From Algoriphagus sanaruensis (lineage in GTDB: Bacteria; Bacteroidota; Bacteroidia; Cytophagales; Cyclobacteriaceae), in assembly GCF_001593605.1 (NCBI RefSeq), contig NZ_CP012836.1:3662501-3726500 (forward strand): DNA of 64,000 nt. The letters are read 5' to 3'. The translations under genes were made by a program, and so were the position numbers. The notes beneath the pieces were generated by a model. It had not been told where the DNA came from and searched no databases. It saw nothing but the letters and a program-made list of their open reading frames with translations. This document shows positions 58,145-62,656 of this stretch, piece after piece; within the stretch, counting starts at the first letter, position 1; each line of letters begins with the position of its first letter.

Positions 58145-59284
58145 TTAATTACCCCCGATAGTCTTTGTGGTAGTTTCACCATTGATGGTGATGGTAATAG
58201 TTTGGTTATCACAAGTCCCTGCACCATAGTCCACGATTACTTCATTTTCTCGGTAAAGCGTTTCTACGACCCCTTCAATCGGTCCTCTTCTTCTTCCATT
58301 GCAAGAAAGGTCAATAACAACAGGAGTGGTGGTTTCATGAGAATAAATCACATCCCCTGAGGCAGTAATTAAAGAAGTTTTTGCCTGATGGATGATGGTA
58401 CCTTCTTTTGGTCTTCTACGATCTTCACTCGGAACAACTTCAGAATCTCGTGATTTTTCAGATGTCCAAATAGCTTCTGTTCCATCTGCAAAGATGAATT
58501 TACCTCCTGCAACGCTGGATGTTAAGGAACCAACTCCGGTTGTTTTATCGAAGGTAGAGACGGTAGTTTTTACTCCAAAAATCTGAATTTCATTAACCAC
58601 ATAATCTTCAAAAGTGATGACTTCAGTAAGTGTATTGTCTACTTTGTTTCGCTCTATAATGATTTTTCCTGATCGAGTGATTTCCTCCTCACCTCTAGTA
58701 ATAGTCACTCCTGTTCCGAAGTCTACTTCTGTCTTGACAATTAGGGCTAATAAAGAATCAATTTCCGGAAACTGATTCCCACTTGGCCCTTCATGCGGAC
58801 CTTCTTGACTACTTGGCAAAGGAAGCTGTACCACAGCTCCGTCTGCATCATAGTGGGTGAGTGTAGCACCCCCAAATTTTGAAATACGGAAGCCTCTGAT
58901 TTCGCCCGAAGATTCAGCATCGATAATGGCAAGAATCTCATCATTTGGTGCGAGGAGGTTCAATCCGTCAATTACTCCTTTATGTCCTCCCTTTCCTGAA
59001 CCTTTGCCAATTCCTTTGCCTTTCCCGTTCGATTTTCCATTTCCCGCATGAGCCGTTTCAGATGTGGCTACTACCCGAGAATTAACCGTTCCTGCTTGAA
59101 TGGAATTTCCACTTATCGTAAAGCTGGATCCACTGACAAGCTGACCGGAAGTTTGTGCAAGATCAACGGCAGTAGCATCTTCCACTGTCAATTGATCAAT
59201 CCCTGTGACATCATCGTTTTGAGAACATGCAGTAGCCAAAAGCAACAAATAGCCGAGCAAAAGTGCGTTTTTAAGAGTTTTCAT
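58145..59284 (-). CDS. Lipoprotein with Gly/Lys-rich segment, unknown function
   Basis: 379 aa. The lipobox ends LATAC with the lipid on Cys20, and the next residues SQNDD resemble a surface-export signal. A Gly/Lys-rich low-complexity stretch (about 82-103, repeated GKG) separates the N-terminal part from a beta-rich C-terminal region (about 140-379) with ITRSGKIIIERN and SLTSSVAGGKFIFADGTEAIW strands and a late Cys pair. No family recognised. Its promoter shares a 7-base direct repeat and spacing with the promoter of the Pro-rich gene at 62574, suggesting control by the adjacent two-component system. Confidence 0.75.
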   Translation of the reverse strand: MKTLKNALLLGYLLLLATACSQNDDVTGIDQLTVEDATAVDLAQTSGQLVSGSSFTISGNSIQAGTVNSRVVATSETAHAGNGKSNGKGKGIGKGSGKGGHKGVIDGLNLLAPNDEILAIIDAESSGEIRGFRISKFGGATLTHYDADGAVVQLPLPSSQEGPHEGPSGNQFPEIDSLLALIVKTEVDFGTGVTITRGEEEITRSGKIIIERNKVDNTLTEVITFEDYVVNEIQIFGVKTTVSTFDKTTGVGSLTSSVAGGKFIFADGTEAIWTSEKSRDSEVVPSEDRRRPKEGTIIHQAKTSLITASGDVIYSHETTTPVVIDLSCNGRRRGPIEGVVETLYRENEVIVDYGAGTCDNQTITITINGETTTKTIGGN

Positions 59285-59310
59285 GTTTTGAGATTAGTTG
59301 GTTAATGATC

Positions 59311-59346
59311 CAAAAGTGGAATGTCAATATGAAGACAACATGAAGA
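59311..59346 (-). promoter_or_regulatory. Predicted response-regulator box and -7 element of the GKG lipoprotein gene
   Basis: On the minus strand TCTTCAT (59346-59340), GTTG, TCTTCAT (59335-59329), ten bases, then CACTTTTG (59318-59311), one base off TAnnTTTG. The leader to the ATG at 59284 is about 20 bases. The same layout, with the same spacings, occurs at 62629-62594. Confidence 0.65.
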
Positions 59347-59358
59347 TTTAAACTTTCT

Positions 59359-60684
59359 TCAATTTTTTTTCAAAAAAATAAATTCAACCTGATTTTGTTG
59401 GTCAATACTGGTTAGTTCCAGTTGGACGCCCAAAAACAAAGCAATCTTAAACATAATCTGAAGTCCAAATCCAGAGCTTTCTCTTGAAGCATCTTTTAAA
59501 AAGACTTGACCTTCCCTGACTTGTTCCAAGACCTGCGGATCGATGGGATCGCCCTCATTAGTAACACGAATCCGATATCCATCTGATATCAGCTCCCCAG
59601 AAAGCACAATTTCCGATCCGCTGAAGGAGTAGCGAATGGCATTTGAAATGGAATTTTGAATCATCATGCTCAGCAAAGAAGCATTTGTTTTTTCAAAATT
59701 GAATTGATCCAAACGATCCAAACGTAGGCGTAGACCTTGATTGGCGGCAATGCCTTCCCAATCTTCCACCAGCTCCTCAATCAATTCGACCATGGACACA
59801 TTTTCCTTCTTTAAAAACTGGGCATTATTTACTTTGGAAAGTAGCAGAAGGGCATTGACCGATTTTTTCATTTTTTGAATGGTCTGCTGCATTTCCATCA
59901 ATTTCCCCTGCTGCTTTTCAGTCAATTCTTCCTCCTCAAAGAGCATTTCCAACTTGGATTGCAAAACAGAAATCGGTGTTTTCAATTCATGCGAGGCATG
60001 AGAAATAAAAATCCGCTCTTGATTAAAGGACTTTTGGATCCGTTTCATCATTTCAGATATGGCCTGATCCAAAATCACAAATTCTCGAGTGGTACTCGGA
60101 ATCGATTCATCCTGAAACTGCTGCGGTTCGTTGATCTGGGTAATTTTCGTTCGAATTATTCGATCAAAGGGTTTCATAATGACCCTGCTAATCCCTGAAT
60201 CTAACAGTGCCGAAAACACAAGAAACAAAATCAGGATGGCGATCGAAATTTGAAAAAATAGGTATTCAATTTCCTCTATGGTTTTGAGGCTTTTTCCAAT
60301 TTCAAGTAAGTAATCCTGCCCTTCAACTGAAATCACTTCAGCAAAAACACGATAGCTTATTTCCTCCTCCTCGATGATCCTCTTTTCGGTTACATATTCT
60401 GTCACTAATGCAAAGCCCATATCCACTTTTTCAAGCAGGATGTATTCCTCTTTTAAAATATTGTAGGACCCGTATCCCGCATCCGGCTCATCATCCGAGA
60501 TAAATGACTGAATCCCATTCTCCAAGATTATTTCTTCGACTTGCTCCTTTTTTTGCTGAAGTTCAGCATCTGTGTTTCGAAGAATCAAATACCTAAAAAT
60601 GAGTGGGCCAGACATCAAAAAAAGCAGCAAGAGAATGCCTTTTCCCAATAAATTAAATAAAAGAAGCTTATTGAAAAGTCGCAT
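59359..60684 (-). CDS. Sensor histidine kinase
   Basis: 441 aa from ATG 60684, which overlaps the response-regulator stop (ATGA); a TTG one codon earlier is unnecessary. Two membrane segments (about 13-35 and 145-165) flank an extracytoplasmic domain of about 110 residues. Then come a linker, HisKA with FISHASHELKTPISVLQSKL (phospho-His), and HATPase with QNSISNAIRYSF (N box), RVTNEGDPI and ESSGFGLQI (G box). Partner of the OmpR-type regulator directly upstream. The stimulus is unknown; the adjacent outer-membrane and secreted genes suggest an envelope signal. Confidence 0.93.
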   Translation of the reverse strand: MRLFNKLLLFNLLGKGILLLLFLMSGPLIFRYLILRNTDAELQQKKEQVEEIILENGIQSFISDDEPDAGYGSYNILKEEYILLEKVDMGFALVTEYVTEKRIIEEEEISYRVFAEVISVEGQDYLLEIGKSLKTIEEIEYLFFQISIAILILFLVFSALLDSGISRVIMKPFDRIIRTKITQINEPQQFQDESIPSTTREFVILDQAISEMMKRIQKSFNQERIFISHASHELKTPISVLQSKLEMLFEEEELTEKQQGKLMEMQQTIQKMKKSVNALLLLSKVNNAQFLKKENVSMVELIEELVEDWEGIAANQGLRLRLDRLDQFNFEKTNASLLSMMIQNSISNAIRYSFSGSEIVLSGELISDGYRIRVTNEGDPIDPQVLEQVREGQVFLKDASRESSGFGLQIMFKIALFLGVQLELTSIDQQNQVEFIFLKKN

Positions 60685-61358
60685 CAACCTGTCACTTTAT
60701 ATCCCAAACCCCGGATTGTTTCCAACCAAGTTACTTCTGCAAAGGGGCTGAGTTTTTTCCGGATGTTTTTAACGTGCACATCAATATAATTTGACTGAAA
60801 ATCATCCTCCAGATGATCACCCCAGAGGTGTTCGGCCAATTGAAAGCGATTTAAAACCCTGTTCTTATTGATCACCATAAACTGGAGAAGAATATACTCT
60901 TTCTTGGTCAATTTCACTTCTTCCCCATTAAAAGCGATAAGTGGCTGATTGAGATGAATCTCAAATCCTCCAAGATTGATCACGTCTTTTTTCCATCCGC
61001 TTTTCCTTCGAATGATCGCTTGCATCCGGGCTTTTAATTCGAGTAGAGAAAATGGCTTTGCCAAATAATCGTCAGCACCGCTTTCCAATCCCAAGATCCG
61101 GTCACCTACCTCAGCTCGCGCAGTTAAGATAATCGTGGAAGCATCCGCTTGGTATTGATTTACTTCCGGGATCAAATCCAATCCATCTCCATCCGGTAAT
61201 CCTAGGTCGAGGAGTACAAAATCATAGGAATTAACGGCTAAACATTCTGAGGCCATCCTTTTTGAAAAGGCATGATCTACCAAATGATTTTCACCTTGAA
61301 CAAATCGGATGATTTCCTGGGCCAAGCCGGCTTCGTCTTCCACTAGCAGAACTCTCAT
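60684..61358 (-). CDS. OmpR/PhoB-type response regulator
   Basis: 224 aa. Receiver domain with acid pocket (LLVEDEAGLA), phospho-Asp in YDFVLLDLGLPDGDG, Thr/Ser and Lys switch residues (IILTARAEVGD, YLAKPFSLLEL); C-terminal winged helix (VKLTKKEYILLQFM, SNYIDVHVKNIRKKL, RGLGYKVTG). It is cotranscribed with an outer-membrane protein gene (ATGA overlap) and the kinase. The direct repeats TCTTCAT-N4-TCTTCAT (11-base period, typical of OmpR/PhoB dimers) in front of two neighbouring units are candidate binding sites. Confidence 0.94.
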   Translation of the reverse strand: MRVLLVEDEAGLAQEIIRFVQGENHLVDHAFSKRMASECLAVNSYDFVLLDLGLPDGDGLDLIPEVNQYQADASTIILTARAEVGDRILGLESGADDYLAKPFSLLELKARMQAIIRRKSGWKKDVINLGGFEIHLNQPLIAFNGEEVKLTKKEYILLQFMVINKNRVLNRFQLAEHLWGDHLEDDFQSNYIDVHVKNIRKKLSPFAEVTWLETIRGLGYKVTG

Positions 61359-62176
61359 TTTGTTTTCTTTTGAAATGGAATCAAATATGAAATCCCTCCA
61401 CTGAGAAAGAAGCGCGAGGAGGACGAATCGTAATCAGGAACTTGAAGCGGTTGAAGAAAATTTAAATCCAACTTAAGCTCCAAATTCTGAAAGGTCAGAG
61501 AAAAAGGAAGAACAAACTCGAAAGCTTGAAGTGTAAATCGGCTGGCTTGAAGGGTCTCCTGTTCGGTAAGCACAAAGTTTCCAAGGGTATAAAAATTGGT
61601 AGTCCCAAAGTAAAAAGAGGCTTTTGGCTCAAACGAAAATAGTCCCTTTCCCCAAAGTAATTGATTCAGTTGAAAATATCGGGAGTGATTAGAAGCTATT
61701 ACAAAATCACTGGGTTGATTGAGAATCGCCTGGACCTGAAAAGTACTATACAACACATTCCAATCCCATCCCAATACTCCTTGAAGAACTCCCATCCGGT
61801 CTGCTCCCACTGAATTCAAATAGCTTCCTCCAGAATATAACCAAGCTCCAAGATCAAGATCCAGTTTTTCACTCACTGAAGAAGAATAGCCTAAGCCTCC
61901 ACCAACCAGACCTGTCAAATCCGGATCAAAAAACCGAGTCCAAGAACCGGAGACGTAGAACCCCGATTTAGTTAAATACATCGATTGAAAGGAAAAAGCA
62001 GGAAGGGATTGTCCAAAGTCTCTGGCCAGAAAAGTAGAAACAGGCTGAAAATCTGTATTGATCCAAAGAAAACTGGTAGAATCTACCGATTCCTCTTGTG
62101 TGGAATCTTGTTCCTGACCGAGTGCTACCAATGGGAAGCTACAAATAAAAACCAGCAACCAGGATGCTATACGCAT
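61355..62176 (-). CDS. Outer membrane beta-barrel-like protein of the two-component operon, unknown function
   Basis: 273 aa with a signal peptide ending near ALGQ, then a Ser/Thr/Glu-rich linker and alternating strands (FYVSGSWTRFF, GGGLGYSSSVSEKLDLDLGAWLYSGG, FEFVLPFSLTFQNLELKLDLNFL) ending in SGGISYLIPF, consistent with an outer-membrane barrel of perhaps ten to twelve strands. No named family is recognised. Its stop overlaps the response-regulator ATG, so the genes are translationally coupled; it may be a sensor accessory or a target of the system. Confidence 0.75.
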   Translation of the reverse strand: MRIASWLLVFICSFPLVALGQEQDSTQEESVDSTSFLWINTDFQPVSTFLARDFGQSLPAFSFQSMYLTKSGFYVSGSWTRFFDPDLTGLVGGGLGYSSSVSEKLDLDLGAWLYSGGSYLNSVGADRMGVLQGVLGWDWNVLYSTFQVQAILNQPSDFVIASNHSRYFQLNQLLWGKGLFSFEPKASFYFGTTNFYTLGNFVLTEQETLQASRFTLQAFEFVLPFSLTFQNLELKLDLNFLQPLQVPDYDSSSSRFFLSGGISYLIPFQKKTK

Positions 62177-62220
62177 GTGAAATATGATGAGCCAAATGAA
62201 CCCTTGAGCTGATTAGATTA

Positions 62221-62574
62221 TCAGCCTCCGGGAGGTCTAAACCGAGGATTTCGAGGTCGAACTTCAGGTCGTTTGATCGGACCAGAAGGGCGGGCTTTAG
62301 GAACACGGACGTTTGCTCTTCCGGGCATTCCTCCTTGTGGGTGAGGTCCTTTTCCGCCTGGCACTGCAGGATTGGCAGCAGCACCTTTAGGGTCAGTTGG
62401 TTTAGCAGACGGAACAGGTAGCGCTCCTTTCTTTGAAGCACTAGAAATTCCTACTTTTTTTTGGGCTCCAGCGGGCGCAGTCTGACTTGGCACCGGTTTT
62501 TTGGGCGGATCAGTTTGAGCCAAAACTGAGAAGTTCAGCCCAATAACCAAGAAAAAAACGAGTATTCGGATCAT
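62221..62574 (-). CDS. Small secreted Pro/Gly/Lys-rich protein, first gene of the two-component operon
   Basis: 117 aa with a signal peptide (ending SVLAQ). The mature 97 residues are low-complexity: Pro, Gly, Ala, Lys and Arg dominate, ending PRNPRFRPPGG; no Cys, few aromatic residues, strongly basic. No family recognised. It begins 44 bases upstream of the outer-membrane gene and carries the promoter of the operon with the TCTTCAT direct repeat. It could be a ligand, an envelope-stress chaperone-like or a matrix-binding product; none is established. Confidence 0.65.
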   Translation of the reverse strand: MIRILVFFLVIGLNFSVLAQTDPPKKPVPSQTAPAGAQKKVGISSASKKGALPVPSAKPTDPKGAAANPAVPGGKGPHPQGGMPGRANVRVPKARPSGPIKRPEVRPRNPRFRPPGG

Positions 62575-62593
62575 AACTACAACTAGATGCCTA

Positions 62594-62629
62594 CAAATAA
62601 ATGTAGGAAAAATGAAGAAAAGATGAAGA
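62594..62629 (-). promoter_or_regulatory. Predicted response-regulator box and -7 element of the Pro-rich/OMP/RR/HK operon
   Basis: On the minus strand TCTTCAT (62629-62623), CTTT, TCTTCAT (62618-62612), ten bases, TTTATTTG (62601-62594), one base off TAnnTTTG. An inverted repeat CCTACA (62590-62595) / TGTAGG (62602-62607) overlaps the -7 region. The leader to the ATG at 62574 is about 14 bases. Confidence 0.65.
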
Positions 62630-62656
62630 AAAAAGGCCGACTTGATGTCGGCCTTT
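62627..62656 (-). terminator. Rho-independent terminator of pgk
   Basis: On the minus strand AAAGGCCGAC (62656-62647), a 5-base loop, GTCGGCCTTT (62641-62632), then TTTCTTC. Its end abuts the predicted response-regulator box. Confidence 0.92.

Follow-up and report, generated by a model that had tools for sequence, protein, structure and literature searches.

A shared direct-repeat promoter box at a candidate self-regulated two-component envelope locus of Algoriphagus sanaruensis and related Bacteroidota

Within a 64,000-nucleotide (nt) stretch of the Algoriphagus sanaruensis genome (contig NZ_CP012836.1, positions 3,662,501 to 3,726,500; hereafter the window), a two-component operon and a neighbouring lipoprotein gene carry the same promoter box, a direct repeat TCTTCAT-N4-TCTTCAT with a period of 11 base pairs (bp). 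We consider it probable that this locus represents an autoregulated two-component circuit, distributed in several classes of Bacteroidota together with the shared box. The genes are arranged on the minus strand in the order pgk, Pro-rich secreted protein, outer-membrane protein, OmpR-type regulator, histidine kinase, and lipoprotein. A preliminary description of the locus had proposed a self-regulated envelope two-component system with one box in common. The boxes, their spacing, rarity and conservation, and their co-occurrence with the kinase/regulator pair were all established here from sequence comparison, and the conservation, the rarity and the co-occurrence with the kinase support that proposal.

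Both boxes were located by motif scan and, as had been described, lie on the coding strand of the genes they precede. Box A, TCTTCAT-CTTT-TCTTCAT, is positioned upstream of the operon (62612-62629, minus strand), and box B, TCTTCAT-GTTG-TCTTCAT, upstream of the lipoprotein gene (59329-59346, minus strand); they start 55 and 62 nt, respectively, ahead of the ATG. At both promoters there is a gap of exactly 10 nt between the second repeat and a -7-like element, an 8-mer with TTTG at its end. This element is TTTATTTG for box A (62594-62601, minus strand), where it is matched by the box-plus-TTG pattern given below, and CACTTTTG for box B (59311-59318, minus strand), for which ATTTG occupies nearly the same position in the sister loci. 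As both 8-mers fall short of a full TAnnTTTG, the genome has no match to the strict pattern used for the phylum below. As judged from the letters alone, the two half-sites, their 11-bp period and the adjacent -10/-7 element agree with the arrangement of PmrA-type regulation.

In the 3.88-megabase genome, the exact form TCTTCAT-N4-TCTTCAT was detected twice and only at this locus, compared with 0.07-0.16 matches expected from base or dinucleotide composition. The same two sites were the only matches to the pattern TTCATN5CTTCATN{13,15}TTG, for which the reversed-pattern control gave none. The regulon predicted for the source genome is therefore confined to two promoters, and the earlier proposal of one regulon uniting the Pro-rich protein, the barrel, the kinase/regulator pair and the lipoprotein agrees with the result that exactly these two promoters match the box-plus-TTG pattern. 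Other candidates in the same genome were set aside. A possible third site with one mismatch (L007, G000:C1:2599414) has no TTTG at the right place, and three further exact CTTCATN5CTTCAT sites lie within an open reading frame (ORF) or overlap an ORF start.

Orthologs of the regulator were detected at 56-79 percent identity in a search of 390 genomes of the family Cyclobacteriaceae, clearly separate from paralogs (44 percent or less). We compared the upstream regions of 23 family loci, all with a regulator ortholog, comprising three loci of the same genus (L061-L063) and 20 further fetched loci. The operon box was kept in all of them: with zero to two mismatches it was found upstream of the first operon gene in 23/23, this first gene coding for a small secreted protein, mostly Pro-rich. 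The three same-genus loci retain the gene order from pgk to the lipoprotein, L062 stopping within the kinase gene, and box A is letter-identical across four aligned loci while its flanks have diverged. When TTG at fixed spacing was also required, a site was observed anywhere in the stretch in 20 of 24 loci, the window included. The exact 10-nt spacing noted earlier holds for both promoters of the source genome but not as a fixed rule, being one nt shorter in some close relatives: the element ends 18 nt past the box at both own promoters, but this distance is 17 nt in L061 and L063 (either promoter) and in L062 (operon promoter).

Conservation of box B was examined in the five sister loci that hold the lipoprotein gene plus its upstream region (L061, L063, L134, L135, and L136), these being the family loci in which the window lipoprotein is present. 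Four of the five, all but L136, have a degenerate upstream half-site (TTTTCAT). A different lipoprotein gene follows the kinase in L139, L148, L149, and L152. The product in L139 is a DUF4382 protein by Pfam, those of the other three are similar by likeness, and in L139 and L152 the gene is preceded by a box.

For more distant relatives, 112 related loci were found with a profile of 21 kinases, and the best 80 were retained. Among these 80, the regulator lies upstream of the kinase within about 1 kilobase (kb) in 77, the exceptions being L263 and L313, which reach contig ends, and L297. The distant regulators show 48-59 percent identity, and the recognition helix of most of them resembles SN[YF]xD[VA]HxKNxRKK, unlike that of the five own-genome paralogs examined. 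Site counts were made on 56 distant loci (L264-L319; Bacteroidales, Marinilabiliales, Pedobacter, Mucilaginibacter, and others) that had been picked by kinase sequence alone. The box with two mismatches or fewer, plus TTG at fixed spacing within a three-position window, was found in 44 of the 56, giving 55 sites; the mean for 200 permuted motifs, scored by the same rules, was 0.9. Means are quoted, as some permuted motifs stand within two swaps of the true motif and inflate the control maxima (for instance, 23 sites in the genus g105). The comparison left out L240-L263, which include many duplicate contigs, and L264-L319 may overlap with the f16 genomes.

In a sample of 395 genomes of the phylum, the strict pattern TTCATN5CTTCATN10TANNTTTG gave 25 sites in 13 genomes, against one site for the control, and the kinase profile at E 1e-45 detected 28 genomes. 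Strict promoter and kinase coincide in 11 genomes (P ~2e-12), all of the genus g105, which we guess to be Flavobacterium. Within g105 (23 genomes), the two occur together in 11 and are both missing in 12 (P 7e-7, Fisher); since relatedness among the genomes is ignored, both P values overstate the case, a point to be held against our interpretation. The sites in the 11 fetched g105 loci flank the operon, lying ahead of it and directly after the kinase. As these loci were fetched for the strict promoter, their site count of 11/11 is circular, which likewise counts against the interpretation, and only the co-occurrence with the kinase is informative.

This co-occurrence bears on the possibility that another regulator, or an alternative sigma factor, recognises the box, the two-component pair being only one of its targets. 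Such a possibility draws on the looser pattern, which was present in 45 of the 316 family genomes that lack a regulator ortholog (in a sample of 335 genomes, the 45 being a count of genomes). Against it stands the genome-by-genome coincidence of kinase and strict promoter in g105. The same is true of 16 genomes (L154-L169) that have an ortholog of the lipoprotein but none of the regulator: upstream of the lipoprotein gene the full TCTTCAT box was found in none of them, for 15 no match at two mismatches or fewer lies close by, and the single match of L160, 159 nt ahead of the hit start, is degenerate (second half TCTTAAA). An 11-bp direct repeat, moreover, suits an OmpR-type dimer, and many sites stand with an ordinary -7 element, as judged by the consensus in PMC7366714. 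Taken together, we regard control by a different factor as distinctly unlikely.

As a separate observation, seven of these 16 lipoprotein loci show TACAC-type direct repeats with a period of about 21 bp (detected by one regular expression), followed in several loci by a CGTATT/CGTCTAA element. The repeat spacing is presumably LytTR-like. This arrangement suggests that the lipoprotein may be under different control in genomes lacking the regulator ortholog.

Several further results qualify or weigh against the self-regulated circuit. With up to three mismatches allowed, 14 matches were observed in the window against 14.26 expected, and with up to two, 99 matches in the genome against 64 for the reversed pattern. 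As the excess is small or absent at two to three mismatches, the claim of rarity depends on the exact form. A chance frequency genome-wide, which had been named beforehand as refuting the proposal, was not observed for that form; within the window, at three mismatches, the count equals chance. In twelve of the 56 distant loci no site was found; several of these twelve hold little upstream DNA. Within the family, the 45 loose matches in genomes without a regulator ortholog compare with 14 among the 19 genomes that have one, the other five lacking the pattern. In the phylum sample, the strict promoter is missing from 17 of 28 kinase genomes, the source genome included, and a single strict site was found in each of two genomes without the kinase. 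Finally, among nine f16/f13 loci, sites were found in two, neither ahead of a signal-bearing ORF. Six of the nine regulators (L385-L388, L391, and L393) have DAH in place of DVH in the recognition helix, which possibly reflects an altered DNA specificity; these DAH relatives are without a convincing box, L391 having one site not before a signal-bearing ORF, and the DVH relatives L389 and L392 are also without a box.

The window count at three mismatches and the position of box A, which abuts the pgk terminator, could also be read to mean that AT-rich sequence behind a terminator contains the repeats by chance, their persistence being due only to the recent common descent of close relatives. 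Recurrence of the box with distant regulators of 48-59 percent identity, in other gene neighbourhoods and far above the permuted-motif controls, makes this reading scarcely credible, and a chance origin was rejected on the exact-match rarity, the two-site TTG pattern and the permuted-motif controls.

For the autoregulated circuit we propose the following mode of action. The membrane kinase would sense an envelope or surface condition and phosphorylate the OmpR-type regulator, and a regulator dimer would occupy the two TCTTCAT half-sites, 11 bp or one helical turn apart. From there it would activate transcription at the place of the -33 element, just upstream of the Bacteroidota -7 element. The geometry fits an OmpR-type activator standing in for the upstream element. 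With its end 10 nt before the -7 element, the box covers roughly the -33 place, and the Bacteroides primary sigma factor reads TAnnTTTG at -7 and TTTG around -33, according to PMC7366714. The box A promoter would drive its own operon (small basic protein, barrel, regulator, and kinase) and the box B promoter the lipoprotein gene. As box A precedes the operon of the regulator itself, the control would be autogenous if the regulator binds box A. We infer this binding, the activation, and the feeding of the regulator by the kinase; for the signal we would suggest a cation or cationic peptide, or feedback by the basic protein, with which the acidic sensor region would be in agreement.

The box also lies inside the stretch that polymerase would cover, and a point against activation is that the regulator could instead repress by overlapping the polymerase site, the kinase signal lifting or imposing the repression. 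TTTG was found at offset 14, within the accepted three-position TTG window, in 16 of 25 family sites and in 42 of 53 unique distant sites, 34 of the latter with the full TAnnTTTG. Such a preferred distance is, weakly, more expected of an activator replacing the upstream element, and we consider repression unlikely.

The regulator gene (60684-61358, minus strand) codes for a PmrA-like OmpR-type response regulator of 224 amino acids (aa) with Response_reg and Trans_reg_C domains. PF00072 and PF00486 scored above cut-off and Asp51 is invariant in 24 aligned sequences, in agreement with membership of the OmpR family. Its best NCBIfam model is PmrA, and its assignment as the PmrA equivalog was rejected (NF007928, 174 bits against a cut-off of 330). 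The kinase gene (59359-60684, minus strand) codes for a PorY-like sensor histidine kinase of 441 aa with HisKA and HATPase_c domains. His232 is invariant in 21 aligned sequences, an alignment that omits L062 and L144 (truncated) and L151, and the periplasmic part has many acidic residues and includes the invariant stretch G-GS-N-L-EEY. Identification of the kinase as PorY was rejected (204 bits against a cut-off of 350), and the PorY model found no own-genome protein above cut-off. The kinase frame of L151 is without the stretch around the phospho-acceptor His, owing to a gap or an assembly fault.

The known system closest on the regulator side is PmrA/PmrB (BasR/BasS), as judged from the PmrA model and from the presence of BasR among the closest solved structures. 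PmrA uses the direct repeat YTTAAK (PMC10927774). The window system likewise has a direct repeat but other half-site letters and a regulator below the PmrA cut-off, and its predicted targets are small basic secreted proteins, a barrel and lipoproteins. On the kinase side, the likeness is to PorX/PorY of Porphyromonas gingivalis, PorY being the best NCBIfam model over nearly the full length. PorX is of another type than OmpR-type regulators, whereas the adjacent partner of the window kinase is an OmpR-type DNA-binding regulator. Strong outputs of Asr, RstAB and CpxP/Spy include small secreted basic or stress proteins, and none of these families was detected in a Pfam scan of eight target proteins. 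An OmpR-family mutation described in F. johnsoniae (PMC10197871) could not be connected to the window regulator family.

Among 105 sites, 79 lie before a secreted protein of less than 210 aa, 77 of these with a net positive mature part; 21 lie before lipoproteins, two before other secreted proteins, and three have no such ORF. The signal-peptide rule behind these counts is crude, and at least one pick (L308) is doubtful. The small proteins are Pro/Arg-rich in Cyclobacteriaceae, Gln/Glu/Lys-rich in Bacteroidales, Lys/Ala-rich in g105, and Lys/Ala/His-rich in Pedobacter. Under the proposed control, outputs would thus vary in sequence while the type is kept: small, secreted, basic, and low in complexity, with or without a lipoprotein. 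The member in the window is the first operon gene (62221-62574, minus strand), coding for a Pro-rich basic protein of 117 aa with a signal-peptide-like start. SSA-R and RP-rich stretches are conserved in 24 aligned proteins, and a Pfam scan of the protein gave no family.

The window lipoprotein (58145-59284, minus strand; 379 aa) has a Gly/Lys-rich linker and an all-beta C-terminal half. It belongs to an unnamed family, and what had been described as a GKG tract turned out to be a variable Gly/Lys/His-rich linker; the lipoprotein alignment comprised 38 selected sequences. No significant Pfam or NCBIfam family was found for it. No PDB match was obtained at E 0.001 or better, which tells little for a model with a disordered stretch. 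Its C-terminal half is related to the box-preceded acidic lipoprotein of L288 (30 percent over 185 columns), with weaker matches in other Bacteroidales loci. DUF4382 (PF14321) was rejected for this protein, the gathering score not being reached; in contrast, the box-preceded lipoproteins of relatives L139, L231 and L265 are DUF4382 members.

The pattern TTCATN5CTTCATN{13,15}TTG was matched 48 times in 24 regulator-bearing genomes, compared with five times for the reversed pattern, and 21 of the 24 had at least one match. A selection of ten off-locus stretches was opened, eight from TTG-pattern matches and two from exact-core matches. Four of these (L231, L232, L235, and L236) look like promoters of related outputs. 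The box precedes a DUF4382 lipoprotein gene in L231 (confirmed by Pfam) and one of DUF4382 type by likeness in L235, while L232 and L236 contain a second Pro-rich paralog elsewhere in the genome, with its own box and -7 element. In L230 (G163:C10) the box is ahead of a gene for a 218-aa lipoprotein that has no Pfam family and may be a further output. L234 is an uncertain case; L233, L237, L238 and L239 resemble chance or coding matches. An additional box-preceded lipoprotein of DUF4382 type, by likeness, was noted in L182. In L182, L231 and L235 the DUF4382-type gene stands directly behind a gene that, by a motif, resembles an iron/manganese superoxide dismutase gene.

A wider interpretation is offered tentatively, and we hold it to be possible but somewhat doubtful. 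Bacteroidota would share a phylum-wide envelope-response system with one kinase/regulator family and one promoter code, TCTTCAT-N4-TCTTCAT-N10-TAnnTTTG. Its main output would be fast-changing, small, secreted, polycationic, disordered proteins (Pro/Arg-, Gln/Lys- or Lys/Ala-rich) that bind anionic envelope material or, in a feedback loop, the acidic sensor of their own kinase. All parts are of known kinds, namely a two-component pair and a direct-repeat operator. A literature search that covered few subscription papers found no report of the box, of the regulon of this regulator family, or of the small basic outputs, in agreement with the earlier remark that no described system was recognised. 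If the proposed circuit is correct, a two-component promoter code would be readable from sequence in many Bacteroidota genera, so predicting response genes, and would point to tiny secreted basic proteins easily missed in annotation. It would also provide an example of output proteins being swapped under a regulator that, like its site, is retained.

The remaining operon gene (61355-62176, minus strand) codes for an outer-membrane beta-barrel of 273 aa. Structure prediction gave about 12 strands at a predicted local distance difference test score (pLDDT) of 83.8, and 20 of 24 barrels were included in the alignment. An LpxR-like lipid A deacylase was considered as a candidate identity, the points of comparison being the barrel and the catalytic residues. 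Behind pgk, a terminator-like hairpin with a T-run (GGCCGAC-ATCAA-GTCGGCC-TTTTTT; 62629-62653, minus strand) abuts box A, its stem being at the same place in three aligned sister loci with changed letters. Box A directly follows the T-run (62612-62653), so that one short spacer is common to both, and likewise in the three aligned sister loci. Four metagenome assemblies labelled Spirosoma fluviale (L243, L244, L252, and L261, the last cut short) contain kinases 60-65 percent identical to the window kinase and the Algoriphagus-type gene order, and in view of these kinases and this order the species labels may be wrong.

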